Shown here piece by piece: positions 8,440 through 23,623 of a stretch of 64,000 nt of DNA. The DNA comes from Deltaproteobacteria bacterium (lineage in GTDB: Bacteria; Myxococcota_C; UBA6777). How positions within the stretch are numbered: the stretch's first letter is position 1; each line of letters begins with the position of its first letter. Under the pieces are notes generated by a model that saw nothing but the letters and a program-made list of their open reading frames with translations, was not told the origin of the DNA and searched no databases. The DNA lies in NCBI GenBank assembly GCA_002731275.1, contig PCBK01000017.1:1-64000 (forward strand). The letters are read 5' to 3'. The translations under genes were made by a program, and so were the position numbers.

Positions 8440-9477
8440 TTAGGATTTTCGTTCGAAGGAGTGGACACATTCGATGAGATGAGCGACGTGCTCAGGGGGA
8501 GTGTACTTGAAGATACCATGTCCAAGGTTGAAGATATGTGGTCCGCCAAGTCCAGCCTTGAGGGTTTTTGTTGCTTCTCTTGTGATGACCTCTGGATTGG
8601 AGAGCATGACGGCAGGATCGAGATTGCCTTGCAGCGTCTTACCAGGGAATTGAGGACGAACCTGATCCAGTGGCACACGCCAATCCACGCTGACCACCTC
8701 CACTGGAAGTTTTGCGATCTCATCATACAAATGACTGGCTTTCACGGCGATGTAGATGCGTGGGACGCCTTCGTCAGCGAGCGCGGAGAGGACTTTGGTC
8801 GCGTACTTCGCGCCAAACTCACGATACATCTCAGCATCGTGAATACCAGCCCATGAATCAAACAATTGAATCGCTTGTGCGCCAGCCTTCACCTGCTCCT
8901 TCAAATACCCAATGCTCAAATCAGCGAGCTTGTCGAGTAAGAGATGTGCAGCTTCAGGTTCCGCACGCAAAAACTGCCGCAAGAACTCGTACTCCTTGCT
9001 TCCAGAACCTTGGACGAGATAGGTCGCGAGTGTCAGTGGCGCACCACCAAAGCCAATGAGGGGCACTTTCAATTCACGACGCAGGATTTTGATCGTCTCC
9101 ATCACGAAGGGAGTGATCTCTTCTGGCTCAGGGACACGGAGCGCCTCGACGGCTGCGACATCGCGGACGGGATTCTCAATCACGGGACCAGGTGAGAAGT
9201 CGATCTTGACCCCCATCGATTCGAGCGGTGTCATGATATCCGCAAAGACAATGGAAGCATCAAGTGGAAAACGACGCAATGGTTGAAGTGTGACTTCAGC
9301 GGCAAGTTCAGGTGTTCCAGCCAACTCAAGGAATGTGTATTTCTCTTTGAGGGCTCTATATTCGGGGAGGTATCGGCCGGCCTGTCGCATGATCCAGATA
9401 GGCGCACGATCCGTATCTTCGCCCCACGCGGCACGCAAAAAGAGAGGTTGGTTTGATTTGACACTCTGCTCGGACAT
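8440..9477 (-). CDS. hemE: Uroporphyrinogen decarboxylase HemE
   Basis: The protein has 345 residues. It removes four acetate carboxyls from uroporphyrinogen III to give coproporphyrinogen III in haem synthesis, in the cytoplasm. Family landmarks are PIWIMRQAGRYLPEYR near residue 26, FADIMTPLE, GFGGAPLTLATYL, FDSWAG and HIFNLGHGI near the C-terminus. The ATG at 9477 is preceded by AGGAG; a TTG one codon upstream is possible but less likely. It is the last gene of a minus-strand run with hemA, hemC and a two-component pair, 44 bases after the response regulator. Its end faces the LRR gene with a 35-base gap and no clear terminator. Confidence 0.96.
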   Translation of the reverse strand: MSEQSVKSNQPLFLRAAWGEDTDRAPIWIMRQAGRYLPEYRALKEKYTFLELAGTPELAAEVTLQPLRRFPLDASIVFADIMTPLESMGVKIDFSPGPVIENPVRDVAAVEALRVPEPEEITPFVMETIKILRRELKVPLIGFGGAPLTLATYLVQGSGSKEYEFLRQFLRAEPEAAHLLLDKLADLSIGYLKEQVKAGAQAIQLFDSWAGIHDAEMYREFGAKYATKVLSALADEGVPRIYIAVKASHLYDEIAKLPVEVVSVDWRVPLDQVRPQFPGKTLQGNLDPAVMLSNPEVITREATKTLKAGLGGPHIFNLGHGIFKYTPPEHVAHLIECVHSFERKS

Positions 9478-9521
9478 CAATGGAACTCCTGTGGGTATAC
9501 AGCGAAGGCCATTTTACAGAC

Positions 9522-10232
9522 CTAAAGGGATTGAGGATCTTTTGTGAAGCGAAAACGAGCCCCACGCAATGTGTGAAAATGAACAGGCTCTTGGGGTGCA
9601 GGTTCGAAGATCTTCCGCAGCTCATCGATATGACGTTCAATGGCACGTGTTGAGGGATACACACCTTCCTGCCAGACTTGTTGTAAGAGCAGATCGCGCT
9701 CTACGACTTGATCTTCATGTTGATGGAAGAAACGAAGCAACTGCAGGGGTTTTCCGTGAAGTTCGAGGTGCTGACCGTTGGACAGGCGAACTTCGCCGCG
9801 CTCGACATCGACTTGATGTCCCAAAAACTCGATCACACCTGCAGTATCATCCTTTTCAAAGGACCACTCTCTGCGCTTGAGCATATTTTTGACACGAAGC
9901 AACAGCTCGGGTAAGTGGAAGGGCTTGACGAGATAATCATCCCCACCAGAGGCCAAACCTCTCACACGATCTTCGGGACGTCCTTTCGCGCTCAAAAACA
10001 AAACAGGGGTCTCATCCCCCTCCTCACGCATCGTCTCGCAGATCGAGAATCCATCCACATGAGGAAGCATCACGTCGAGTAACACGAGTTCAGGTTGCCA
10101 CTCTCTCCACTGTTCAAGAGCTTTCTTGCCATCAGCGGCATGTGCGACGAGAAATCCTTCATCTTCAAGATTGTCGACGAGGACCTCCGCGACAACGGAC
10201 TCATCTTCGACAATCAAGATCTTGCGGCTCAT
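9522..10232 (-). CDS. OmpR/PhoB-type response regulator
   Basis: The protein has 236 residues. A receiver domain covers residues 1-120 with acidic pair E9/D10, phosphoacceptor D53 (LLDVMLP), S81 and K103 (LVKPF). A C-terminal winged-helix DNA-binding domain covers about 130-232 (RAIERHIDELRKIFE, then HTLRGARFRF). It should bind DNA when phosphorylated. Its start overlaps the stop of the sensor kinase by one base (TGATG), so the two are translationally coupled and form a cognate pair. It lies between hemC and hemE, which suggests control linked to haem or respiration; the target is not shown. Confidence 0.93.
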   Translation of the reverse strand: MSRKILIVEDESVVAEVLVDNLEDEGFLVAHAADGKKALEQWREWQPELVLLDVMLPHVDGFSICETMREEGDETPVLFLSAKGRPEDRVRGLASGGDDYLVKPFHLPELLLRVKNMLKRREWSFEKDDTAGVIEFLGHQVDVERGEVRLSNGQHLELHGKPLQLLRFFHQHEDQVVERDLLLQQVWQEGVYPSTRAIERHIDELRKIFEPAPQEPVHFHTLRGARFRFTKDPQSL

Positions 10233-11371
10233 CAGGTTATATCCTTTTGGGTGTCAGTGTTTGTTTCCTTAGGTTCAGCACGATGTACAGAGACAGTGAA
10301 GCAGCTTCCGGTCTCAAGGCGTTTGTAATAGATACGTCCTTGCATATTGCGAACCATCTCACGTACGAGGTGAAGCCCTAGACCGAGACCGGGGCGTTCG
10401 CGTGTAAGCTCACTTCCAACCCGATAAAACGCTTCAAAGATCTTGTGCTGTTCTTCTGTAGGGATACCTGGTCCATTGTCTTTGACTGAGATCGACACAA
10501 AGCGCTTTTTCACCTTGATCTGTACGGTCACCTGTTTTGGGATCGTCACAGTGTACTTAACGGCATTATCGACAAGATTCCTGAGGACAAGCTCCAAGGA
10601 GAGAGGATCGACAAGCGCCCACGCAGGTTCTTTGGCGGGTATAAATGTGAATTGAACCTCTTCTTCGTCGTGGGAGTCACGAAAGACATCCATTTGCCTG
10701 TCGATGTCTGTGTTGAGTTCTCTAACCTCGTGTCGTGTAACGTCGTCTGTATCGTCGAGATTGGCAGCAGAAAGAACATGCTCACATGTATTCTGTAGTC
10801 GATCGAGTTGACCACCAAGACGTTGCAAGTAACGGGCACGTTTTTCGCCCTCATACGCCCTCATCTGGAGGGTCTCCACGATCAACCTGATCGCGCCGAT
10901 GGGCGTCCTCATCTCGTGACTCACAGCGCTCAGGAAATTCTGCTGTCGTTCGCGAAACTCACGCTCTGTACCGATGGCTTTCAGGAGCAGGTAGAGTCCT
11001 CCCATCACCAAGATCACAAAGACAAAGCCTTCCCAGACAAACATCCGCACATAACGACGTTGTTTATGAAGCTCGACGACGGCAGACTTGAGCAAACGAA
11101 AGCGAGGGCCTTGGCACTCGAATCCTCGATAGTAACGTTCACATACGGAGATCACATGAGCGCGTTCTTTGGCGTTTTGGGCTTCGTGGTAGAGGGTTTG
11201 CAAGCCGAGCTGCTGGAGGGCAAGAGAGGTGCTTTGGTGCTTCGCCGTTCGATCGACGAAGTTGCGCAAGAAGACAACCCACCACACAGCCTGGGCCGTG
11301 ACGAAAGCAAAGATAAACGCCAACACCAAGGAGATCATTCGGTGGGAATGTGAGAGCGTACCTCTCTTCAT
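10232..11371 (-). CDS. Membrane sensor histidine kinase
   Basis: The protein has 379 residues. Transmembrane segments lie at about 11-35 and 110-131 and enclose a periplasmic loop of about 75 residues that has Cys77 and Cys86. The dimerisation and phosphoacceptor box is AVSHEMRTPIGA with H152. The ATPase domain has the N box LVLRNLVDNAVKYT, the G1 box DNGPGIP, FEAFYR, and the G2 box PGLGLGLHL. It should sense a signal at or across the membrane and phosphorylate the regulator encoded next to it. It starts 14 bases after hemC. The two periplasmic Cys are candidates for redox or metal sensing, but this is only a guess. Confidence 0.93.
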   Translation of the reverse strand: MKRGTLSHSHRMISLVLAFIFAFVTAQAVWWVVFLRNFVDRTAKHQSTSLALQQLGLQTLYHEAQNAKERAHVISVCERYYRGFECQGPRFRLLKSAVVELHKQRRYVRMFVWEGFVFVILVMGGLYLLLKAIGTEREFRERQQNFLSAVSHEMRTPIGAIRLIVETLQMRAYEGEKRARYLQRLGGQLDRLQNTCEHVLSAANLDDTDDVTRHEVRELNTDIDRQMDVFRDSHDEEEVQFTFIPAKEPAWALVDPLSLELVLRNLVDNAVKYTVTIPKQVTVQIKVKKRFVSISVKDNGPGIPTEEQHKIFEAFYRVGSELTRERPGLGLGLHLVREMVRNMQGRIYYKRLETGSCFTVSVHRAEPKETNTDTQKDIT

Positions 11372-11385
11372 TATATATAGACCTT

Positions 11386-12279
11386 CTACTCTGCAAAAAA
11401 TTGAAAGGCGTCTGTGATGAGCTCATCGGGAGATGTCCCTGTCGCTGTGTACGTTTTCCCTTCGTACCAGACGAGCAGAGAGAGACCCTCATCCGCTGTA
11501 GACGTTGCGTGTGCGCCAAGTGCGAGTTGGCATCCTCCATCGAACTTCTTCATCAAACCACGTTCGACATTCACAGTCTTTGCGGCGTCGGCATCATGGA
11601 TCTTGGCCATGACTTCTCTTGTGTATGTGTCATCATCCCTGCACTCAATCGCGAGCGCGCCTTGTCCAGGTGCTGGGACAAGTTCGTCGGGTTCCAGTGT
11701 GAAGACGGTGAGGTGATCGACGGTGATTTCGAGACGTGTCAACCCGGCTGCTGCGAGAATAATCGCATCGTATTCACCATCGACACATTTTTGGATACGT
11801 GTGGGGACATTGCCTCGAAGCTCGGCAAGTTGGAGATCGGGGCGTAGTTGTGCGATCTGTTTTTGGCGTCGAACGGCGCTTGTTCCGACTTTGACGCCAT
11901 CCTTAAGTGGAAATCCCTTTGCAGTTTTGTCGATCGCTTCAGGTCGTGCGAGGAGACATTCACGGGGATCGACGCGTTGTGGGATGGCGATCAACGTGAG
12001 TCCTTCACAAGCTGCGGAGGGCAGATCTTTGAGGGAGTGTACAGCGATATCGGCGTTTCCATTGAGCACCTCATCCTGGACAGCTTTGGTGAAGAAGCCT
12101 TGCCCTTTCATCAGACGAAAAGCGGTCAACTGTTTATCGCCTTGTGTCTCGACAAGAACAAGTTCAGCATCGACGCCCTGTGCCTGGAGTTGGTCTTTGA
12201 CCCAATTGGCTTGCCACAATGCGAGTTTGCTTTTCCGGGTCGCGATACGAATCGTCTTGGGGGATGTTTGGGAGTCCAA
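11386..12279 (-). CDS. hemC: Hydroxymethylbilane synthase (porphobilinogen deaminase) HemC
   Basis: The protein has 297 residues. It joins four porphobilinogen molecules into hydroxymethylbilane. Landmarks are IRIATRKSKLALWQA at 10-24, HSLKDLP with catalytic D85, GTSAVRRQ, LRGNVPTR, LVPAPGQGALAIE, and FDGGCQ with C250, which carries the dipyrromethane cofactor. The start is a TTG. An in-frame TGA two codons upstream rules out a longer protein, and the conserved N-terminus rules out any later Met. GGAG lies 10 bases upstream. It lies between hemA and the sensor kinase gene. No hemB or hemD was found in the window. Confidence 0.95.
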   Translation of the reverse strand: MDSQTSPKTIRIATRKSKLALWQANWVKDQLQAQGVDAELVLVETQGDKQLTAFRLMKGQGFFTKAVQDEVLNGNADIAVHSLKDLPSAACEGLTLIAIPQRVDPRECLLARPEAIDKTAKGFPLKDGVKVGTSAVRRQKQIAQLRPDLQLAELRGNVPTRIQKCVDGEYDAIILAAAGLTRLEITVDHLTVFTLEPDELVPAPGQGALAIECRDDDTYTREVMAKIHDADAAKTVNVERGLMKKFDGGCQLALGAHATSTADEGLSLLVWYEGKTYTATGTSPDELITDAFQFFAE

Positions 12280-12350
12280 AGGTCACGCGCTCCAATCGTT
12301 ACATGTTTGAGAGAAAGTGAATATCACGGACAATGTGTGCGATATTTTGT

Positions 12351-13523
12351 TTACGATGTCAAAGGAAAGATGTCAGCAGCCTCCAGAAAAGTTTTCGCGG
12401 CTTGCAGACCGTGCTCCCGGGCCATCACACGTAAGCCTTTGATCGGACCTTTCGCGAGCTGATTGGCGAGTCGAGAGGCATCCTTTTCAGAGACAAAGGC
12501 CTTGGCTTTCTCGATATACATCATCCTGAGAGCTTTGATAGAAGGTCCAAGTTGCCGCTCGATCCATTCTCCGATCGCAAGATCGAGTTCTTCGAGCAAA
12601 ACATCTTCAGCGAAGATAAGTTGCTCTTCGAGATCTCTTCGTCTTTCCTGTCCAGCTTGTTGAAGTGTTTCGACATCAAACAACGGTACACCGAGAGCTT
12701 GGGCGGTCCCTGGCGCGACATTACGAGGAAGCCCCATATCAACGATGACACGTAGACCATCAACCTCTTGAAGCTGCTCACGTGAAAACAAGCTCTCCAC
12801 GGAGACGGCGGAGATAAAAGCGTCGAGTGGAGGTGTTGTCTCCAAAAACTGAGAGAGCGCCATCGCCTCAACGTGTTCGCCCATCTTTGCTGCGACTTTT
12901 TCGGCTTTTTCAACGCTACGATTGATCAGGGTGATGTGTGTCTCTGGTCGCTCAGCCATGACTTTCGCAGCGAGTTGGCCGATCTCACCAACACCGACGA
13001 TTCCAACCTTCGCCTGTTGTGGGAGATGGGATTCCATCGCGGGACGAGCGAGACTAAACAAGGACGTGTTGAGCGGCGCGAGGCGAACCTCACGTCGGAT
13101 TCTTTTTGCGATCCGAAAAGCTGTTGAGAAGGCGAAGTTGAGTTCTTTTCCGACAGCCTTCTCTTGTTGTGCCTGTGCAAACGATTCGCGCATCTGCATC
13201 ATGATCTGATCTTCGCCAGGGTTAAGAGAGTCTAGCGATGACGCGATACGTGCGAGCTGTTCGACACATCCCTCACGAGAGAAGACGTAGCAATGCCTCG
13301 AATGTTCAGGCATCAGTCTGTGCTTGGCGGCTTCAAAAGAGTCATCCTCTTCAAGTACGACAGCCAACTCAAAGCGGTTGCATGTCGAGAGAATCGTGAC
13401 TTCGGCAAATCCCATATCGAGGAATTGTCGATGTGTGAAGGAACCATATTTTCGATTCCAGAACTCAAGCGCCTCGATCCCGCCTCTGCGGTGGGCTACA
13501 CCAATTAATGCTAATCTATCCAT
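12351..13523 (-). CDS. hemA: Glutamyl-tRNA reductase HemA
   Basis: The protein has 390 residues from the ATG at 13523; the open frame runs further upstream, but MDRLALIGVAHRRGG is the family N-terminus. It reduces glutamyl-tRNA(Glu) to glutamate-1-semialdehyde with NADPH, the first committed step of C5-pathway haem synthesis. The catalytic Cys is C48 in TILSTCNRFE. The NADPH site is GIVGVGEIGQLAAKVM. DMGLPRNVAP and the C-terminal helical dimerisation domain follow. It is first in the minus-strand haem run and sets the flux of the pathway in many bacteria. hemC follows 71 bases later. Confidence 0.95.
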   Translation of the reverse strand: MDRLALIGVAHRRGGIEALEFWNRKYGSFTHRQFLDMGFAEVTILSTCNRFELAVVLEEDDSFEAAKHRLMPEHSRHCYVFSREGCVEQLARIASSLDSLNPGEDQIMMQMRESFAQAQQEKAVGKELNFAFSTAFRIAKRIRREVRLAPLNTSLFSLARPAMESHLPQQAKVGIVGVGEIGQLAAKVMAERPETHITLINRSVEKAEKVAAKMGEHVEAMALSQFLETTPPLDAFISAVSVESLFSREQLQEVDGLRVIVDMGLPRNVAPGTAQALGVPLFDVETLQQAGQERRRDLEEQLIFAEDVLLEELDLAIGEWIERQLGPSIKALRMMYIEKAKAFVSEKDASRLANQLAKGPIKGLRVMAREHGLQAAKTFLEAADIFPLTS

Positions 13524-13793
13524 CAATCCAATCAAACGACTCTTCCGCACTCTAGAGCATCGACACGTGCGAAAACATAAACCAAAAAAGACAGCCAATG
13601 TACTGTCAAGACTCCGACCCAGACAGGGTATGTTCTCTGATGTAGAGATGCAAGGAAAACAAATCGGCTTCGCATTCCGACAGAAAGGATCAGAAAGCAA
13701 GGTCGCAGCCAAAAATGAGCGAAGGTGTCGAAGGGAGTTTAAGCGTGCAAGTAAGTCGTATCAAATCGTTTGCAAATTGAGCGAGTTGATACA

Positions 13794-13904: not shown

Positions 13905-14783
13905 ATGATGTTGAAGAAGTGGTATGCGCAACAAACCATGCAGATCACCATAGCAACTTGCACGTTGGTATTTTTTGGTGTGCTTTTGGTCCAACCGACT
14001 CTCGCAGCGGCCAAACAGGCTTCGAGCACCAAGCGATACGATCAAGCGCAAGAGAGCATTTATTTTCGCGCGAGCCAACCGAAGCTTCCGTTATGGCAAA
14101 AGATTCAATGGACCCTGACAGCGCCACCAAGTGCGGTACAGTCGTCCGCTTCGAAAAGAGCGCCCCAAAAAATTGCGATGGTCCAACCGACCAAAGAGCA
14201 ACACATGCAGATCGATTTTCGCCAAGCAGTCCGCCTGCCACAAGCGAAGGTCAAAAAGAAAAAACAACAACTTCGCCTCGCAGCGGCAGGCGCAGAAGCA
14301 CAAAAACGCCATGAAGCGATTGGATTGTGGCACCAAATCTTTGGATTAAGCTCCTTGGCCTTGATGGCTGCGAGTGTTGTCATTGGTCAGATCAACGCGA
14401 TCGACTTTCTCAATGATCGCCTGAGCTCGGAACCTTTGATTTGGACACACCGTGGCCTGATTCTCGGAACAGCGATCACGTATCTCGCCGCACGAATCCT
14501 CGCGTGGATGCTTCCAAAAGTCGAAGACTCCGATGAGGATGGTGGATTTAACGAAGATGGTGAGACAAAAGAGAAGAGCTTTGACTCCTCCAAAATCCAC
14601 AACCTTCTCTCTTGGATACACGGCATCGGTATGTTGGCGCTGATGATCGGTGGATTTATCAACGCAAGATTTATCCCTTCCTATACCCCTGCAAAAACTG
14701 CATTTACAGTCTCTCACCTTGTGAGTGGATATGTCACGTTGGCCTCCATGGGAGCTGCCGCGATCGTGATCTCGTACTTTTAA
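13905..14783 (+). CDS. Four-helix membrane protein with paired His, possible b-type cytochrome
   Basis: The protein has 292 residues. An N-terminal hydrophobic segment (about 12-36) is followed by a basic soluble stretch to residue 135 and then four predicted membrane helices at about 141-161, 182-203, 234-254 and 268-291. Each helix has a His near one end: H143, H182, H239 and H271. H136 and H232 lie just outside. A four-helix bundle with two His pairs is the layout of b-type cytochromes of the b561 or ferric-reductase kind, so it could bind haem and move electrons across the membrane. I do not recognise a named family. An acidic loop (SDEDGGFNEDGE) joins helices 2 and 3. It is first in a three-gene run with CX4CH lipoproteins and is divergent from hemA. 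AGAGG lies 9 bases before the ATG. Confidence 0.75.
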   Translation: MMLKKWYAQQTMQITIATCTLVFFGVLLVQPTLAAAKQASSTKRYDQAQESIYFRASQPKLPLWQKIQWTLTAPPSAVQSSASKRAPQKIAMVQPTKEQHMQIDFRQAVRLPQAKVKKKKQQLRLAAAGAEAQKRHEAIGLWHQIFGLSSLALMAASVVIGQINAIDFLNDRLSSEPLIWTHRGLILGTAITYLAARILAWMLPKVEDSDEDGGFNEDGETKEKSFDSSKIHNLLSWIHGIGMLALMIGGFINARFIPSYTPAKTAFTVSHLVSGYVTLASMGAAAIVISYF

Positions 14784-14808
14784 CTGATTTGTGTAAGGAG
14801 CAATCCGA

Positions 14809-15216
14809 ATGAAATTTTATGTTGTTGTTGGAATCGCTTTGTTGGGTGGTCTCTCATTTCTTGCTTGTGGTGATGGTGACTCATGCACAACCAACGTCTC
14901 GTTGTCCAAATGCATCCTCCCCTTATTTAATGATGACACCAATGGTTGTACTGGCGCAGGATGCCACAGCGGCGCGACCCCCAACTCCGATCTCGATCTG
15001 TCCCAAAATCTCCACGCGAACATGGTCAACGTCAAAGCAAAAGACGGAACAAACGTGTACATCGTCCCTGGAAAACCTGAAGAGAGTTACCTCCTCACAA
15101 AAATGAAGGCCAATCCTCCTGCAGGTGGACAGATGCCCATCGCAAGAACAGCGTTCACAACCGAACAACTCACAATGATTGAGACGTGGATCAAAGAAGG
15201 TGCGCTGGATAACTAA
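14809..15216 (+). CDS. Cytochrome c-like lipoprotein, one CX4CH motif
   Basis: The protein has 135 residues. A short signal peptide ends in a lipobox (LSFLAC, Cys20), so it should be a lipid-anchored envelope protein. The putative haem site is CTGAGCH, a CX4CH form rather than CXXCH. LDLSQN, YIVPGKPEESYLL, a possible axial Met in GGQMPIA and IETWIKEGA follow in the order seen in myxobacterial and planctomycete cytochrome-type domains. It begins 25 bases after the membrane protein and 34 bases before the two-domain paralogue. Attachment of haem is inferred, and electron transfer to or from the membrane protein is a guess from position. Confidence 0.82.
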   Translation: MKFYVVVGIALLGGLSFLACGDGDSCTTNVSLSKCILPLFNDDTNGCTGAGCHSGATPNSDLDLSQNLHANMVNVKAKDGTNVYIVPGKPEESYLLTKMKANPPAGGQMPIARTAFTTEQLTMIETWIKEGALDN

Positions 15217-15250
15217 TCAACGCCCCGCAGATTCGAGAAATGGAGGCATC

Positions 15251-16057
15251 ATGCGTATTGGATTGTTTGTTCTCGCCGCCGCGATCTTGGGTTGTTCTTT
15301 GCTCGCATGTGAACCCCCAACTGAATGCCAGGGTGATAGCAATATCTCTTACATCAAATGTATCCGCCCCACGCTCACAGCCAATTGTACAGGTGGGCAC
15401 TGTCACGGAGAGGATGAGCCAGGCAAAGGCCTGCGCCTCGACGAGATTGGGAAGATATATGACAACATGGTTAACAAACAAGTTGCCGCAGGTGGCACAA
15501 CACACATCCTGATCAAACCAGGTGACCATGAGAACAGTTACTTGTACCTGAAGATGCTTCAAGACAAACCTGCAGAAGGAGGCCGAATGCCCATTGGGTT
15601 CAGACCCTTCCTCAGTGAGTCACAAATGAAGATGTTCCGTGTATGGATCAACGAAGGTGCAAAAAACGACGATCCAAATTACACGCCACCTGACACGGAA
15701 GCCAAGAAGCCCGAAATTCCTGCAGGCATCGAAAATGTATCATTCAAAAATGATATCCAGGCGATCTTCAAAAAGAGTTGTCTGGGACAAGGATGCCACG
15801 GGAAAACAGGCTTCTCTGGTAATCTCAACCTCGAAGAAAACACCCTCGCCAATATCCTCAACAAGGACTCACTGAATCCGGACTTCAAGCATATTGTCCC
15901 GGGTAAACCTCTGGAGAGTTACATCCTGGTCAAAGTACTTGATGATGACAAACGCCCAGATACAGCCGGTTCAAGGATGCCCTTTGGTACGCCTCTCACG
16001 ACAGAAGAGATCGCCAAGATCTACGTCTGGATCGAAGAAGGCGCCAAAGACAACTAA
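15251..16057 (+). CDS. Cytochrome c-like lipoprotein, two CX4CH domains
   Basis: The protein has 268 residues from the ATG at 15251, with GGAGG just upstream; the open frame is longer but lacks the signal. The lipobox is SLLAC. Two copies of the domain in the preceding gene follow. Domain 1 has CTGGHCH and GGRMPIG; domain 2 has CLGQGCH and GSRMPFG. Each ends in W-I-x-E-G-A. The two domains are joined by a short Pro-rich linker. The gene probably arose by duplication of the single-domain form. It is the last gene of the run and leads into the repeat island. Confidence 0.82.
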   Translation: MRIGLFVLAAAILGCSLLACEPPTECQGDSNISYIKCIRPTLTANCTGGHCHGEDEPGKGLRLDEIGKIYDNMVNKQVAAGGTTHILIKPGDHENSYLYLKMLQDKPAEGGRMPIGFRPFLSESQMKMFRVWINEGAKNDDPNYTPPDTEAKKPEIPAGIENVSFKNDIQAIFKKSCLGQGCHGKTGFSGNLNLEENTLANILNKDSLNPDFKHIVPGKPLESYILVKVLDDDKRPDTAGSRMPFGTPLTTEEIAKIYVWIEEGAKDN

Positions 16058-16611: not shown

Positions 16612-16775
16612 CAATCATCCCAAACAGGACGCTTGCTTTGGACGCAAGCACAACGTCCGTCGAATCAGATTTATAGCTAAGCAGCCGTATATATCGGCTA
16701 AATATCCCCTCCCCTCGAAAGATTTGAGGGGAGGGAAGTTGCGAAGCGACAGGGTGGAGAGTTTGTTGAGGTGGA
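16612..16775 (+). repeat. Family A structured repeat, isolated copy
   Basis: It has the GCAAGCACAACGTCCGTCGAA block, GCCGTATATATCGGC, a long stem CCCTCCCCTC / GAGGGGAGGG (within 16706-16735), a GAA-loop hairpin (16738-16750, with one G-U pair) and GAGAGTTTGTTGAGGTGGATG. Compared with 17401-17429 the long stem shows a T-to-C change matched by A-to-G on the other arm. Confidence 0.8.
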
Positions 16776-16822
16776 TGATTGCAAGCACACGAAGAGAAGA
16801 ATACACCTACTAGACGGGTCTT

Positions 16823-17030
16823 TCCCCCCTGTGCAACCTGTATTTTGCTCCGGTCGACAAGGGGAGCAATGCAAAGGAGAGAACAGAACCCCCTCAGTCC
16901 GACCTACGGTCGTCCGGCTCCCCCTACTCGACTTTGTCGGCAAGGGGAGCGATGCAAGCCCCCCTCAGCCTCCCTTACGGTCGGCAGTTCCCCCTTCTAT
17001 TCAACTTCGTTGGCAAGGGAAGCGATGCAT
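16823..17030 (+). repeat. Third repeat: about 71-bp tandem units
   Basis: Two clear units start at 16889 and 16960 with CCCCCTCAG, and a more diverged unit precedes them. Each unit has TACGGTCG, a run of CCCCCT, a TCGACTTTGTCGGCAAGG-like block and GGAAGCGATGCA. It is unrelated in sequence to family A and lies between family A copies. The repeats are too few and too diverged for a CRISPR. Confidence 0.65.
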
Positions 17031-17094
17031 ATCAAAGGATATATCGCGATATAAACGAAAAATCCGTGTATGTCGGTTAAAACTCAGTAGGGGC

Positions 17095-18058
17095 GGGCCT
17101 TGTGTCCGACCTCAACCATCGTATATATCGGTTGGTTGCTCCCTCCTCTCGAAAGGTTTGAGAGGAGGGAAGAGCCGAAGGCGAAGGGTGGAGAGTTTGT
17201 TGAGGCGGATGATTGCAAGTGAAGACGCAAAAAACCCACTGAAAGTTCGTAAGCAGCCGAGCTCTAAAAGGATATAGCTTGCTATATCTGCCTGGAAGTG
17301 AGGGATGATATAGGATGGTCGGGGGAGTTTGCGGAGACACAAGTGCAACGTCCGCCGGAGCAGATTTATAGCGAAATGTCGTATATATCGGGCAAATGCC
17401 CCCTCCTCTCGAAAGGCTTGAGAGGAGGGATGTCGCGAAGCGACAGGGTGGTGAGTTTGTTGAGGTGGATGATTGCAAGTGAAGACGCAAAAAACCCACT
17501 GAAAACTAGCAAGCAAAAAGGAATCCAAGGATATGGCTTGCTATATCCGCCTACAAGATAGGGATGAACTCGTGGAGTCAGGGGAGTTTGCGGAGACGCA
17601 AGTGCAACGTCCACCGGATCAGCATTCTAGTATACCCCGTATACATCGGATGAATGGTCCCTCCTCTCGAAAGGCTTGAGAGGAGGGAAGAGCCGAAGGC
17701 GAAGGGTGGAGAGTTTGTCGAGGCATATGTTGCAAAGCGCACGAAGCAAATAAGCCCGAACAGGGCGCTTGCTTTGGGTGCAAGTGCAACGTCTGCCGGA
17801 ACAGATTTTAAGCGAAATATCGTATATATCGGATGAATGGTCCCTCCTCTCGAAAGGCTTGAGAGGAGGGATGTCACGAAGTGACAGGGTGGTGAGTTTG
17901 TTGAGGTGGATGATTGCAAAGCGTACGAAGCAAATCAGCTATGAAGAGAAGCCTCTCCAGGAAGAGTTCTGTCAGTGGTAAAGCCCTAACCCCGCAGGGG
18001 TTCAAATGCGGTCCAGCGCGCTGCGCTGGTGCAACGTCCGCCGGATCAGATTTTGAGT
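17095..18058 (+). repeat. Family A structured repeat, tandem array of four units
   Basis: Long stems CCCTCCTCTC / GAGAGGAGGG lie at 17141-17169, 17401-17429, 17659-17687 and 17842-17870, spaced 260, 258 and 183 bases. A GAA-loop hairpin follows the stem: TGTCGC-GAA-GCGACA (17431-17445), TGTCAC-GAA-GTGACA (17872-17886), or GCC-GAA-GGC in the other two copies. Two units also have the GGATAT..ATATCC hairpin; the 17261 copy is the 8-bp GATATAGC/GCTATATC. The third unit lacks the GTGAAGACGC to GCGGAGACAC segment, which explains its shorter length. No gene is credible here; short open frames on both strands are by-products. Confidence 0.85.
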
Positions 18059-18811: not shown

Positions 18812-18841
18812 TTGCGTTCACAACAAGAAGCGCAATGATAA
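18812..18841 (+). promoter_or_regulatory. Possible promoter for the barrel-metzincin block
   Basis: TTGCGT (18812-18817) and TGATAA (18836-18841) are 18 bases apart. They would give a leader of about 175 bases for the gene at 19021. The match to consensus is only moderate. Confidence 0.3.
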
Positions 18842-18882
18842 AGAGTAGATATGAAACAGATCGTACAAAGGATCACTATGCG

Positions 18883-18908
18883 CTTGCGATCAGGATCCGG
18901 ATCGCAAG
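18883..18908. promoter_or_regulatory. Perfect 9-bp inverted repeat in leader
   Basis: CTTGCGATC and GATCGCAAG flank an 8-base centre (AGGATCCG). It lies 112 bases upstream of the ATG at 19021. It could be an operator or an RNA hairpin. No T-run follows. Confidence 0.5.
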
Positions 18909-19020
18909 AACGAGTCCAATAGAGAGAAGAAAGATCATGATCAAGTTGACGCAAAACCAACACGAAAAAACTCCCCAATTGAAAAGAATCGTGCGTGGTA
19001 TTTGTTTGGAGAGAAAAGCC

Positions 19021-20046
19021 ATGAAGAAGGTATTGTTGTTGTTGTTGATGTTGTTGGTTGTGCCTTCAGTGGCGAACGCAGCACCAGGCTACAGCTTCAT
19101 TATTAATGATAGTCAATTGCGAAAAGATCCAACGTACTGGCGTGCAAAAGCACCCATGGTACCTTCCTTGGGTGTTGGTCTTGGCTTTGGTTTTCGTCCT
19201 GTCTACTACGCGCCTTCCAACGCAGAAGTCCAACCCTACATTACGTCGGGTTTGAGCATCAGCATCGGCGCTGTCGCAGCCCAATTTGGCGCACGTGGAT
19301 ACTGGAGTGACCTTCGTATGGGTGTTAGCTGGGGCTTCTCTAAAGCCCTTACCGACAACGTCGGAAGCTCCCAGTACGCACGCCTCGAATATCCAAGAGA
19401 CGTAGGTCTCAGCCTTGGAAAATCCCTGTTTGTTGAGAAGAACACAGGAATTCGCGTTGGTTTTGGTGTGAGTGGTCGCATCCCAGTGTCCCCTTCTTCC
19501 CAGTTGCGCACATTGATCACAAGCTTGAGCCCCCGCCTCTCAGCGTCCAAGACGTTCTTGGGTCGCATCTCGCTTTCTTACGGATTCGGCGTCAACTTCA
19601 ACTTCTACTTGCAAGACAGTGGTGTGTACAACCCCGACCTCGCAGGTATCCCAGGCGTCAACAATCGCTGGGGAATGAACCACTCATTTGGCTTGGGTGT
19701 TGCGATCTTGCCAAACCTGCGTGTGAGCTTTGGATTGAGCATCGGCGTAGGCTACTCATTTGCTGACAACTACACAGCAGTCGACGGTCCACAGGTCTTC
19801 GGTGCAGAGAACCTGACCCCTGCGGATCTCGCATCCTTCCCCATCAACGAAGGAAACTCATACGGAATTGGCTTTACATTGAGCTACGCTATCAACCGAC
19901 ACATCGGCTTGAGCCTCGGTTACAGCAACGGCGGTCGCCAATTCGAATGGCAATTCGATTCCCAAGGAAACAGACACTTTGTTTTACGTAACCCGTTTAA
20001 ACTCGAAAATGGCTCATTTAACTTCGGTATTCGCGGAAGTATCTAG
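19021..20046 (+). CDS. Outer-membrane beta-barrel-like protein
   Basis: The protein has 341 residues from the ATG at 19021, which has GGAG 9 bases upstream; the open frame starts earlier but lacks the signal. Residues 1-20 are a classic signal peptide (KKVLLLLLMLLVVPSVANA). The rest is a series of alternating, Gly- and aromatic-rich strands (GVGLGFGFRPVYY, SYGFGVNFNFYL, SFGLGVAILPNLRVSFGLS, GIGFTLSYAINRHIGLSLGYS). This is the look of an outer-membrane barrel. No named family is certain. It is followed after 112 bases by two giant metzincin lipoproteins, so it may help export or anchor them, which is inference only. Confidence 0.75.
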   Translation: MKKVLLLLLMLLVVPSVANAAPGYSFIINDSQLRKDPTYWRAKAPMVPSLGVGLGFGFRPVYYAPSNAEVQPYITSGLSISIGAVAAQFGARGYWSDLRMGVSWGFSKALTDNVGSSQYARLEYPRDVGLSLGKSLFVEKNTGIRVGFGVSGRIPVSPSSQLRTLITSLSPRLSASKTFLGRISLSYGFGVNFNFYLQDSGVYNPDLAGIPGVNNRWGMNHSFGLGVAILPNLRVSFGLSIGVGYSFADNYTAVDGPQVFGAENLTPADLASFPINEGNSYGIGFTLSYAINRHIGLSLGYSNGGRQFEWQFDSQGNRHFVLRNPFKLENGSFNFGIRGSI

Positions 20047-20158
20047 AGTCGACAGCTCTCAGGAGGACAAAAAGAACATTGGAACGTAGAAGACCCATCG
20101 ATGTATTGGCGAAGGTCATAAGGACTTTCGATTGGCAGTCGTGAAGGAGGAACTGGAG

Positions 20159-23100
20159 ATGAGAAGACACCTCACCGTGGTGTTGCTCACACTAGCAAGC
20201 ATGTTCCTGTCCAGCATAGTCGTAACAGGCTGTGCTTACAGGCGAGCAGACCGCAGTCTTGTTCAGCCGCTTGCGTTGAGCAAAAAGCAATTTAAAGGTG
20301 AATGGTACTACATGAAGACGGTCTACGAAGCACCCTTTGAGTCAGGGTTCTTCAACGGCCAGGGCGGTTGGCCACTTGGTGCCAAGATCCGTTGGGAGAT
20401 CACAGAGCGTTACCTGTACGCATTTAACGCTTCCCCCAACGTCCGTAACACTGATAGCGAATTGACTCCATTGGCAGCATGGCCAATCACAAGTCACTTC
20501 GATATCAAGCCCGCCATCAACTATATGACAGGCGAGCCCTCGAACGTGATCATCGAGGAGCGACGTGATGGTCTTCCCTGGTATCAGCGTAAGTACATGC
20601 GCGTTATGTGGGAAAGACAATCATTGTCCGACTGGACAGACATCTTCCAGACATACTACAAATGGATGGGTGTTGTTCGCGTTGAGCCCGCAAACTACGT
20701 TGCACCACAGAAGGTGGAGATGTCTTCAGACTACATGACTTTTGTGTCTGATGACCTGATCACCAAGATCTACGACAGCTACTACAACATGGTGATCAAA
20801 GAGATCCCCATGTCATCGTATCGTGTTCGTACTCGCCACGCCTTCAGAAAGGTCAAAACATCCACGTACTCCCCCAAAGAGTACAACGATGCCATGTTTG
20901 CGAAGTTTGGTAACTTCCGTACGACTGTCGTCCGATACAACCAACAACGTGGTATCGTCGACTGGAGTTACAAGTTCTACGCAAGTCGCCACAACGTCGC
21001 GACCCAAGAAGAGCTCGACAAATACGCAGCCGACAACACGCCAGAAGATCAGCAAAAACCCAAGCAGGTCGTCTACTACCTCTCCCCAGACTTCCCCGAG
21101 GAGTTGATGGAAGGTGTGCGTAAGGTCGAGAAGGGTTGGAACGAAGCATTCCAACACGCGCTGCAGCGTAAAGACCAGGTCTTCGAGATCCGTTGTAACG
21201 GATACAAGATGATGGACGGAAAAGCTGAGTGTGACGCAGCCAAAACAGGTATTCGTCGCGACCTTGGTGATCTCCGCTACAACTTCATCTGGTGGGTTAA
21301 TCCTCCACAAGCAGGTGGTCTTCTCGGTTATGGTCCCAGCCTCGCGGACCCAGATACTGGTGAGATCGTTCACGGCTCCGCTTACATCTACGGTGCTCCC
21401 CTCCGTCAGATCGTCGACTCCTACATGGTCCTCTACGATATGACAACAGGCCGTTATAAGAGTGAAGACATCCAAAACGGTGTCGAATACCTCAACGCAG
21501 CCTTTAACCTGAACAACAACTTGCCCCTCGCGTTGCCCAATGGCTCCACGCAGAAGGCTATCAACCCCACAGTGACAGGACCCAAAGTCCGCACACTGAA
21601 TACACCCGCGAAAATCCTCACGCGCATCAAAAGCCCTGGGTACTTGCAACGTATGCTGCAAGTGAAAAAAATCGATCAGGCTTCCATCACTGCAAGCCTC
21701 TCTATGATCGACAACCACCCACTCGCAAAACAAACATTGATGCACGATGAGATGGTACAGCTCGCATTCCCAGGTCTCGACCCTTCAGCAGTCCTGACGA
21801 ACTCAGATGCGAAGGTCCAAGAGATCCTCAACCGCTACCACCCCGTCGAGATGTTGAAGCCACACCGTCTGCGTGACATGCTCAACACCTTCCTCGCGCC
21901 ATCCAAAATGAACATGTACATGGCCGACTACTACGACGATGTAGCGCTGCAATCGTTCTTCAAGTACCACATCCAAAAGAAAACGCCTCGCAACGAATTG
22001 CGTAAGCGTATCATGGAGTTCTTGTTTGTCTCTGTCACCGCTCACGAATGTGGTCACACGCTCAGTTTGACACACAACTTCAAAGGCTCAACTGACGAGT
22101 ACAACTACCACGACTCCTACCACGATCTCGCGAAAGACGGAAAAGTCAAATGTCAGGACGACGACAAATGTCCTCCCGACATGAAAGTTCCCGCTTCAAC
22201 GAGCAAAGAAGACATCACAGCAGTCCAACGTTTCTACCGAAACGCTTCTATCATGGACTACGCTGGCGAATACTATGACGACACACTCGGTGTAGGTAAA
22301 ACTGACAAAGCAGCGATCGCATTCATCTACGGTGGATTGGTCGAAAAAGCAGTCAGTGATCCTCGCGAGCAAGGTGAGTTGATCAAATGGAGCGTCGAGG
22401 TTGAGCGTAAAAACCAAAACCCCAACGATCCCCTGAAACTCCGTCCCTTCCGATTCTGCTCTGACTACCGCGTCGGCCAGGATCCCCTGTGTCAACGTTG
22501 GGACTCCGGTCCAGGCGCAGTCGATATCGTCCAACGTATCATCAAAAGTTACGATCGTACTTACCCACTTCGTTACTTCCGTCGTGGACGTCGTAGCTAC
22601 AGCATGAACGCTGCGTTCTACCGCAACTTCTTCGGGTTCCAACATATCGCGAGTATTTACCAAGACTGGACATACCGCGTTATCACACAACCCGGTTACA
22701 AGAAGACCAAGGACTTCGAAGATAAACTCCAGGCGATCCAAACAGGTTTCCAATTCTTCACAAGAATTTTGACCACACCACGTGTTGGACAGCACGAGTT
22801 TGACAAGATCTCCCAAACATGGCAGCTCAGCGCGACAAGTGAAGACATTCACCGCGTCAAAGTGGACATCCCAGTGGGTGTTGCACGCTACATGTTTAGT
22901 ACCGTCCAAGACGGTTACTACGGAATCTTCCGTCTCCGACGTTCAGGTTCATTGTATGACAAATTGTTGTCCCTCATGTCGATGTCGATTCGCTCTTGGG
23001 GTTACTACAACAACGACGTCAACTGGATTTATACCAACTTCTACGATCTGTTTACAGAAGATACAACAGAGCTGTTCCAACAAGGTATCTCCAGTGTTTG

Positions 23101-23623
23101 GAAGCCAGACAGTCCACTGTTGTTTAAAATGGAAGTGGAAGAAAACGGCAAGAAGATCCAAGCGCCCATCGAACCAGGTTGGCACCCCTTCTTGCAGTAC
23201 AACAGTATGATTTACGGACTCGCGTTGCTCAACAACCAACTGTCTGATCGTACATTCCAAAACTTCATGCGCGTTGGTATTGAAGGTAGCGGTAAATCCT
23301 GGACACCACCAGGCTCCAAAACTGTCACCTGTCCTGACATCAACAGCGTCACCAAACACTACAGTTGCAAATCCGCTCCCGTACTCTGTTTCATGAACGC
23401 ACAAAAGACACGTACCTACTTCGGTGTTCAAACAGAAGCAAACAACAGCGTCTCTTGGCAGCTCGTCAAGCGTGGCTGTGAGCTTGCTGAAGAAGTCGAG
23501 TTGTTGCGTAATAATACAGCGAACGTCGAGCGTTCGGACATCGAACGTAAAGAGAATGAGCTTCGTCTGCTTGAGACCGTACTCACCTACATGCAGTACT
23601 ACGTCTCGATCTATGGCGGTTGA
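20159..23623 (+). CDS. Giant metzincin-type zinc metalloprotease lipoprotein, copy 1
   Basis: The protein has 1,154 residues. The ATG at 20159 has GAAGGAGG 8 bases upstream. The signal peptide ends in a lipobox (VVTGC), so it is lipid-anchored. The zinc site is HECGHTLSLTH at 629-639 (HExxHxxxxxH), with a later Met-turn SIMDYAG. This fits the zinc-dependent metalloproteases with an EcxA/pappalysin-like catalytic part (DUF5117/DUF5118/Met-zincin group). The long N-terminal half (QFKGEWYYMKT, YYLSPDFPEE) and C-terminal half are shared with the next protein. A short Cys-bearing segment near residues 1058-1082 is absent from the paralogue. The likely role is peptide-bond cleavage outside the inner membrane. 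Confidence 0.88.
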   Translation: MRRHLTVVLLTLASMFLSSIVVTGCAYRRADRSLVQPLALSKKQFKGEWYYMKTVYEAPFESGFFNGQGGWPLGAKIRWEITERYLYAFNASPNVRNTDSELTPLAAWPITSHFDIKPAINYMTGEPSNVIIEERRDGLPWYQRKYMRVMWERQSLSDWTDIFQTYYKWMGVVRVEPANYVAPQKVEMSSDYMTFVSDDLITKIYDSYYNMVIKEIPMSSYRVRTRHAFRKVKTSTYSPKEYNDAMFAKFGNFRTTVVRYNQQRGIVDWSYKFYASRHNVATQEELDKYAADNTPEDQQKPKQVVYYLSPDFPEELMEGVRKVEKGWNEAFQHALQRKDQVFEIRCNGYKMMDGKAECDAAKTGIRRDLGDLRYNFIWWVNPPQAGGLLGYGPSLADPDTGEIVHGSAYIYGAPLRQIVDSYMVLYDMTTGRYKSEDIQNGVEYLNAAFNLNNNLPLALPNGSTQKAINPTVTGPKVRTLNTPAKILTRIKSPGYLQRMLQVKKIDQASITASLSMIDNHPLAKQTLMHDEMVQLAFPGLDPSAVLTNSDAKVQEILNRYHPVEMLKPHRLRDMLNTFLAPSKMNMYMADYYDDVALQSFFKYHIQKKTPRNELRKRIMEFLFVSVTAHECGHTLSLTHNFKGSTDEYNYHDSYHDLAKDGKVKCQDDDKCPPDMKVPASTSKEDITAVQRFYRNASIMDYAGEYYDDTLGVGKTDKAAIAFIYGGLVEKAVSDPREQGELIKWSVEVERKNQNPNDPLKLRPFRFCSDYRVGQDPLCQRWDSGPGAVDIVQRIIKSYDRTYPLRYFRRGRRSYSMNAAFYRNFFGFQHIASIYQDWTYRVITQPGYKKTKDFEDKLQAIQTGFQFFTRILTTPRVGQHEFDKISQTWQLSATSEDIHRVKVDIPVGVARYMFSTVQDGYYGIFRLRRSGSLYDKLLSLMSMSIRSWGYYNNDVNWIYTNFYDLFTEDTTELFQQGISSVWKPDSPLLFKMEVEENGKKIQAPIEPGWHPFLQYNSMIYGLALLNNQLSDRTFQNFMRVGIEGSGKSWTPPGSKTVTCPDINSVTKHYSCKSAPVLCFMNAQKTRTYFGVQTEANNSVSWQLVKRGCELAEEVELLRNNTANVERSDIERKENELRLLETVLTYMQYYVSIYGG

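Follow-up and report, generated by a model that had tools for sequence, protein, structure and literature searches.

A widespread, unnamed family of membrane proteins linked to YceI lipocalins, with predicted c-type lipoproteins as its neighbours in one bacterial lineage

Three genes form one run on the forward strand of the window, the whole stretch of 64,000 nucleotides (64 kb) analysed here. With a probability of about 0.6, they belong to a unit of a two-haem b-type membrane protein, a YceI lipocalin and c-type lipoproteins, which links the quinone pool to the periplasm. This reading is based on conserved residues, a predicted fold, gene linkage and a match to a c-type family, from which we infer haem binding, the membrane side, the quinone partner, the direction of electron flow and a protective role. 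The membrane protein is a member of a widespread family that has no name in Pfam or NCBIfam. The family is real and conserved, probably of a two-haem electron-transfer type with a lipocalin partner, and the window carries a lineage form of it with predicted c-type lipoproteins. The genes, taken from the list of open reading frames, are as follows.

13905–14783, forward strand: four-helix membrane protein, 292 aa, with an N-terminal signal-like helix and predicted bis-His pairs H143/H232 and H182/H271 (open reading frame, 63-row alignment, AlphaFold)
14809–15216, forward strand: one-domain CX4CH lipoprotein, 135 aa, predicted mono-haem c-type cytochrome (PSCyt1, motif, alignment with relatives)
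15251–16057, forward strand: two-domain CX4CH lipoprotein, 268 aa, predicted di-haem c-type cytochrome (PSCyt1, motifs, structure model)
12351–13712, reverse strand: hemA, divergent neighbour, context only (open reading frame)

The gaps in the run are 25 and 34 bp, and a ribosome-site-like sequence, aaggag, precedes the one-domain lipoprotein gene. For the two-domain lipoprotein, the ATG at 15251 is most likely the start codon, and not the TTG at 15179, from which the frame would overlap the preceding gene. The original prediction described a membrane protein gene followed by one- and two-domain CX4CH lipoprotein genes and divergent from hemA. These genes exist, are co-directional and have this orientation to 12351–13712, which by its sequence we take to be hemA, for glutamyl-tRNA reductase. 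The host genome is 10.75 Mb in 200 contigs. In the genome collection, the phylum of the window comprises five genomes of a single family, that of the window and four sisters (G001–G004).

The alignment of the membrane protein family has 63 rows: 62 of the 76 non-redundant members and L005. Five divergent sequences (L080 and L114–L117), L105 and eight close relatives were left out. Columns are on average 25% identical, and just five positions never vary across the 63 rows, H143, G147, H182, H232 and H271; this invariance is partly built in, since searching with a profile selects for sequences that carry them. The codons of the four invariant His residues and of a second His in helix 3 are the following.

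14331–14333, forward strand: His143, helix 1, predicted ligand (His in 63/63 rows)
14448–14450, forward strand: His182, helix 2, predicted ligand (His in 63/63 rows)
14598–14600, forward strand: His232, helix 3, predicted ligand, replacing H239 (His in 63/63 rows)
14619–14621, forward strand: His239, helix 3, not conserved family-wide (His 21, Ala 41, Thr 1 of 63)
14715–14717, forward strand: His271, helix 4, predicted ligand (His in 63/63 rows)

One His per helix had been proposed, namely H143, H182, H239 and H271. All four are present, but helix 3 contains two His residues, and the proposal fails for H239. This residue is seen in 9 of the 12 seed rows, yet it is not kept in the wider family. 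By helix order, it lies two turns deeper than H232. H239 is rejected as a ligand because it is Ala in 41 of 63 rows, and the alignment points to H232 as the likely ligand of helix 3. The four His residues (143, 182, 232 and 271) are kept in all nine left-out members (L105 and the eight close relatives) and in 20 of 20 members of a further phylum, one of which is already among the 63. The four relatives of the divergent group L114–L117 are without H143 and keep the other three. L080 has a longer copy, L129, that probably falls outside the family.

The AlphaFold model made with the 63 rows has a mean pLDDT of 78.5, and its core blocks are mostly at 90–98. The predicted helices are 113–169, 176–202, 228–256 and 262–291, and each invariant His is on a separate one. 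The predicted four-helix fold is well supported. Structure prediction, which had been suggested as a check, gives a confident four-helix bundle that resembles di-haem bundles. Judged by helix order and length, H143 and H232 would lie towards one face of the membrane and H182 and H271 towards the opposite face, as in a two-haem layout. Many relatives have signal-peptide-like N-termini when read by eye, and because of these starts we place the H143/H232 face in the periplasm. Against this placement, the residues ahead of helix 1, on the face called periplasmic, carry positive charges, contrary to the positive-inside rule.

Structural comparison with VIA-align returns designed bundles (Z up to 15.2), including the two-haem designed 4D2 (Z 13.8, rmsd 1.8–1.9 over 104–106 residues), cytochrome b6 of b6f (Z 13.5) and the b561 4o6y (Z 12.1 over 134 residues), where a Z near 13 may reflect no more than a common helical bundle according to the tool's own note. 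Foldseek with the same model finds nothing at E < 0.001, and its best E is 0.28. When PDB sequences are compared with the family profile, the top match is again the b561 4o6y, with an E of 0.024 that is not strong alone. Matches at E up to 0.1 among the 63 members are to PF03188 (27 members), PF01292 (20), PF01794 (3) and PF02628 (2), and the best PF03188 E is 8.8e-05. Among members scanned singly, none is over the Pfam b561 cut-off, and the best PF03188 score is 22.7 against 23. The window protein itself has no PF03188 match up to E 1 and reaches 11 bits against PF01292, for which the cut-off is 30.1. We favour haem because several weak signs agree, namely the fold, the profile and the sub-threshold b561 matches, together with the His pattern.

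The His residues might instead bind zinc, iron or copper in a haem-free metal-binding or structural four-helix protein, and the YceI linkage would then reflect lipid handling, not redox. Four-helix bundles are common, members scanned singly reach no Pfam cut-off, and haem binding is a prediction. Nevertheless, weak matches recur to several haem-binding membrane families (those four of Pfam), the helix order spreads the His residues over both membrane faces, and redox carriers are frequent neighbours of the gene. We consider a haem-free protein improbable, and the two-haem b-type protein is kept as the preferred reading.

A search with the single window protein finds it in 6 of 98 genomes: the five of the window's family, and G053 with a weak match (hhalign probability 97.9% over 139 columns) in which the key His residues are present. 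The profile search finds members in 12 of the 386 genomes drawn as relatives. They are also found in 88 of 195 genomes of the phylum of G032, 39 of 245 of that of G201, 6 of 297 of that of G228 and 6 of 45 of that of G209. The best Pfam match of the window protein is DUF4079, at 15.9 bits against a cut-off of 31.4, and just 3 of the 63 members match this family. Membership in DUF4079 is rejected on these grounds. NCBIfam LIC_13387 matches 6 of the 63 members with a best E of 1e-6, and none of these was found among the 20 proteins scanned, of which 18 are in the 63-member set. By eye, the G228 relative at L039:5952–6914 has an N-terminal extension that resembles a carboxypeptidase regulatory-like domain. 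Also by eye, L109:3589–6099 contains a relative of the membrane protein beside an apparent membrane protein of the ferredoxin type and another redox protein.

The most constant neighbour of the family is a gene for a YceI lipocalin. It is just upstream of the membrane gene in all four sister genomes; the YceI proteins of G002, G003 and G004 pass PF04264, and that of G001 is found only by a custom model. Outside the window, 101 distinct loci were read: 82 distinct ones of 87 strong matches, and 19 of 20 more (L154 repeats L043). These cover part of the profile matches in the phyla of G032 and G201. A YceI gene accompanies the membrane gene, in the same orientation, in 85 of the 101; one to three YceI genes were found per genome of 6.6–10.8 Mb. 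The other 16 loci are without YceI in the stretch read, in a set where flanks are often only 1.5 kb. By hand count, YceI is seen in 4/4 loci of the sisters, 6/6 of the G228 phylum, 8/8 of the G209 phylum, 20/20 of the G201 phylum, 0/2 of G053 and G378, and 47/61 of the G032 phylum, where many loci are close relatives, so that the YceI counts are not independent events. A Rieske protein is nearby on either strand in 53 of the 101, and the Rieske domain is upheld by Pfam in all four proteins scanned; the YceI and Rieske models were built partly from these same loci. Among the frames scanned, there is no fusion of the membrane protein with YceI. The linkage between the membrane protein gene and YceI is well supported.

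Neither YceI nor Rieske is present in the 64 kb of the window. The idea that a remnant of YceI survives in the interval from hemA to the membrane gene is rejected, since tblastn with eight YceI proteins gives a best E of 0.23. A YceI on contig C103 of the same genome is 31–34% identical to the YceI of three sisters and 18–24% identical to eight others aligned. From these identities, it may be the displaced partner of the window's membrane protein. The partner was invisible from the window sequence because it is encoded elsewhere in this genome.

In the window's lineage, CX4CH c-type lipoproteins stand in the place of a nearby Rieske protein. Both lipoproteins of the window have a lipobox cysteine. 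CX4CH is present in all three domains (14947–14967 in the one-domain protein; 15386–15406 and 15779–15799 in the other). A possible axial Met had been predicted, and indeed each domain has a later Met-Pro, with the Met at 15133, 15587 and 15977. The two-domain lipoprotein passes PSCyt1 (PF07635) with 35.3 bits against the cut-off of 22, and the one-domain lipoprotein is narrowly under it with 21.9 bits. The model of the two-domain lipoprotein is of medium confidence (mean pLDDT 71) and poor at the first haem site. Its structural matches include hydrazine synthase, FoxE and PccH, all proteins with c-type haem, at Z 4.2–7.4. Foldseek with this model gives three weak rows from two c-type cytochrome entries. 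Cytochrome c assembly proteins (PF01578) are present in all five genomes of the lineage. Based on their sequences, the lipoproteins are predicted to be mono- and di-haem c-type cytochromes.

In 5/5 genomes of the lineage, a co-directional gene for a CX4CH or CX5CH lipoprotein is downstream of the membrane gene, close in four and about 0.9 kb off in G002; one lipoprotein domain of G003 has CX5CH. The genes beyond this lipoprotein vary among the five genomes. The lipoproteins could be unrelated passengers that stand beside the membrane gene in this lineage only and do not take its electrons, and the neighbourhoods from outside the lineage that were read by eye show no recognisable CX4CH lipoprotein next to the gene. 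Their persistence in all five genomes, while the genes beyond them change, makes passengers very unlikely, and we keep them as putative electron acceptors of the membrane protein.

Conserved gene order, proposed beforehand as a check, holds for YceI (the sisters and 85/101 loci, not the window itself) and, within the lineage, for the lipoprotein (5/5), but not for hemA. Divergent hemA is beside the unit in three of the five lineage genomes, those of the window, G002 and G004. In G003 the 20 kb read contain no hemA, nor does the 4.3 kb contig of G001. Because it is adjacent in only 3/5, hemA is rejected as a functional partner and as a defining context. The link to hemA on which the original prediction had drawn is local genome context, and the constant neighbour is YceI.

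The surroundings show other features. At 8440–13712 on the reverse strand, the window contains hemA, hemC, a sensor kinase, a response regulator and hemE, as named from their sequences. The same order is seen in G002 (L022 13913–19171), and in both the genes of a two-component system lie within a cluster for haem synthesis. An intergenic array at 16643–17939, between the lipoprotein and the next gene, has five copies of a repeat of about 140 bases that are 60–100% alike, with a palindrome-like core. The stretch 18835–23623 encodes a beta-barrel-like protein, which matches OMP_b-brl below cut-off, and a large Met-zincin that passes PF16313. Genes like this pair follow in G002, and the barrel alone in G004.

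As for the mechanism, the membrane protein would be a b-type cytochrome with four helices and two haems, in the b561-like fold class. Each haem would be held by two His residues of alternate helices, H143/H232 near the periplasmic face and H182/H271 near the cytoplasmic face. A periplasmic YceI lipocalin, able to carry an isoprenoid quinone, would work with it, encoded in this genome on another contig. Electrons would be passed singly to the envelope c-type lipoproteins at their CX4CH haem sites, and in other phyla the carrier encoded nearby would usually be Rieske. Electrons most likely move through the unit between quinone, in the membrane or bound to YceI, and periplasmic one-electron carriers. 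As has been proposed for LcoA-BcnA, its purpose would be to hold envelope quinones or lipids at the proper redox state. The b-type to c-type path of the original prediction stands as the best reading, given the four invariant His residues, the fold, the sub-threshold PF03188 matches in 27/63, the c-type matches and PF01578 in 5/5, and loses only its H239 ligand and its hemA link.

A more specific version can be proposed tentatively, at well under even odds. Across several phyla, the unnamed two-haem protein would take electrons from quinone presented by YceI and pass them to any high-potential one-electron carrier of the lineage, whether Rieske, CX4CH cytochrome c or perhaps cupredoxin. At L112, a CXXCH protein follows the membrane gene. 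At the divergent L116, which is without H143, a cupredoxin gene (PF00127, over cut-off) is upstream.

The unit could also be a quinol-oxidising outlet, a minimal counterpart of the b and Rieske/cytochrome c part of a bc-type complex that feeds adjacent high-potential carriers, with YceI supplying or storing the quinone. The variation of carriers by lineage (Rieske, the CX4CH lipoproteins, the cupredoxin of L116) would fit it, as would cytochrome b6 among the closest folds. However, the likeness to b6 is no stronger than that to designed bundles, the predicted ligands are one His per helix, unlike those of cytochrome b of bc complexes, and for the members from the G209 and G228 phyla, which pair the membrane protein with YceI, no Rieske was found, so that a carrier is not obligatory. 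A quinol-oxidising outlet is thus rather unlikely, and exchange between quinone and one-electron carriers, in whichever direction, is preferred.

YceI lipocalins bind quinones and other lipids, and their one studied membrane partner, LcoA, is tied to defence against lipid peroxidation (PMC9113575). Here an apparently unrelated, unnamed membrane family shares the YceI partner, often with Rieske in addition, in lineages outside the synteny section of that paper. If independent, this second case of a b-type candidate paired with YceI would speak for electron transfer, to or from the cargo of the lipocalin, as the core function. YceI, Rieske and the lipoprotein are soluble, testable parts and offer a route to the function of YceI.

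Four known systems can be compared. With PSCyt1, the planctomycete-type cytochrome c (PF07635), the two-domain lipoprotein shares a score over the cut-off, but here the sites are CX4CH, apart from the CX5CH domain of G003, and the lipoproteins are beside a membrane b-type candidate. The core of cytochrome b561 (PF03188; 4o6y, 5zle) likewise has four helices with one His each. Cytochrome b561 has six helices, whereas the membrane protein here has four core helices only, stays under the Pfam cut-off when members are scanned one at a time, and has other partners. Cytochrome b6 or b of bc complexes with Rieske is similar in its two-haem four-helix bundle, predicted here, and in the Rieske gene nearby in other phyla. 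The His ligand layout of cytochrome b in bc complexes differs from one ligand His per helix; besides, YceI is the most constant partner here, and there is no sign of a bc-type complex.

The closest studied system is LcoA-BcnA of Burkholderia cenocepacia. According to PMC9113575, the b561 gene lcoA is linked to YceI genes, lcoA and bcnA mutants show increased lipid peroxidation, and YceI lipocalins are found with ubiquinone-8 or other isoprenoids. In LcoA-BcnA(-BcnB) and E. coli YceJ-YceI (PMC9113575), as in the family described here, a membrane b-type cytochrome, here a candidate, is linked to YceI across many bacteria, and two bis-His haems are expected in the membrane part. The family here differs in its signal sequence and N-terminal extension and in its frequent Rieske neighbour or, in the window, c-type lipoproteins; the main text of PMC9113575 mentions neither Rieske nor cytochrome c. 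In the open-access literature searched, this membrane family is nowhere described together with YceI and Rieske, and no paper combines YceI, Rieske and cytochrome b561. Comparison of the family with E. coli YceJ by hhalign gives a probability of 0.3, that is, no detectable homology. Because the same kind of lipocalin is linked, yet kinship to E. coli YceJ is not detectable, the unit resembles LcoA-BcnA in design and is not a member of that system.
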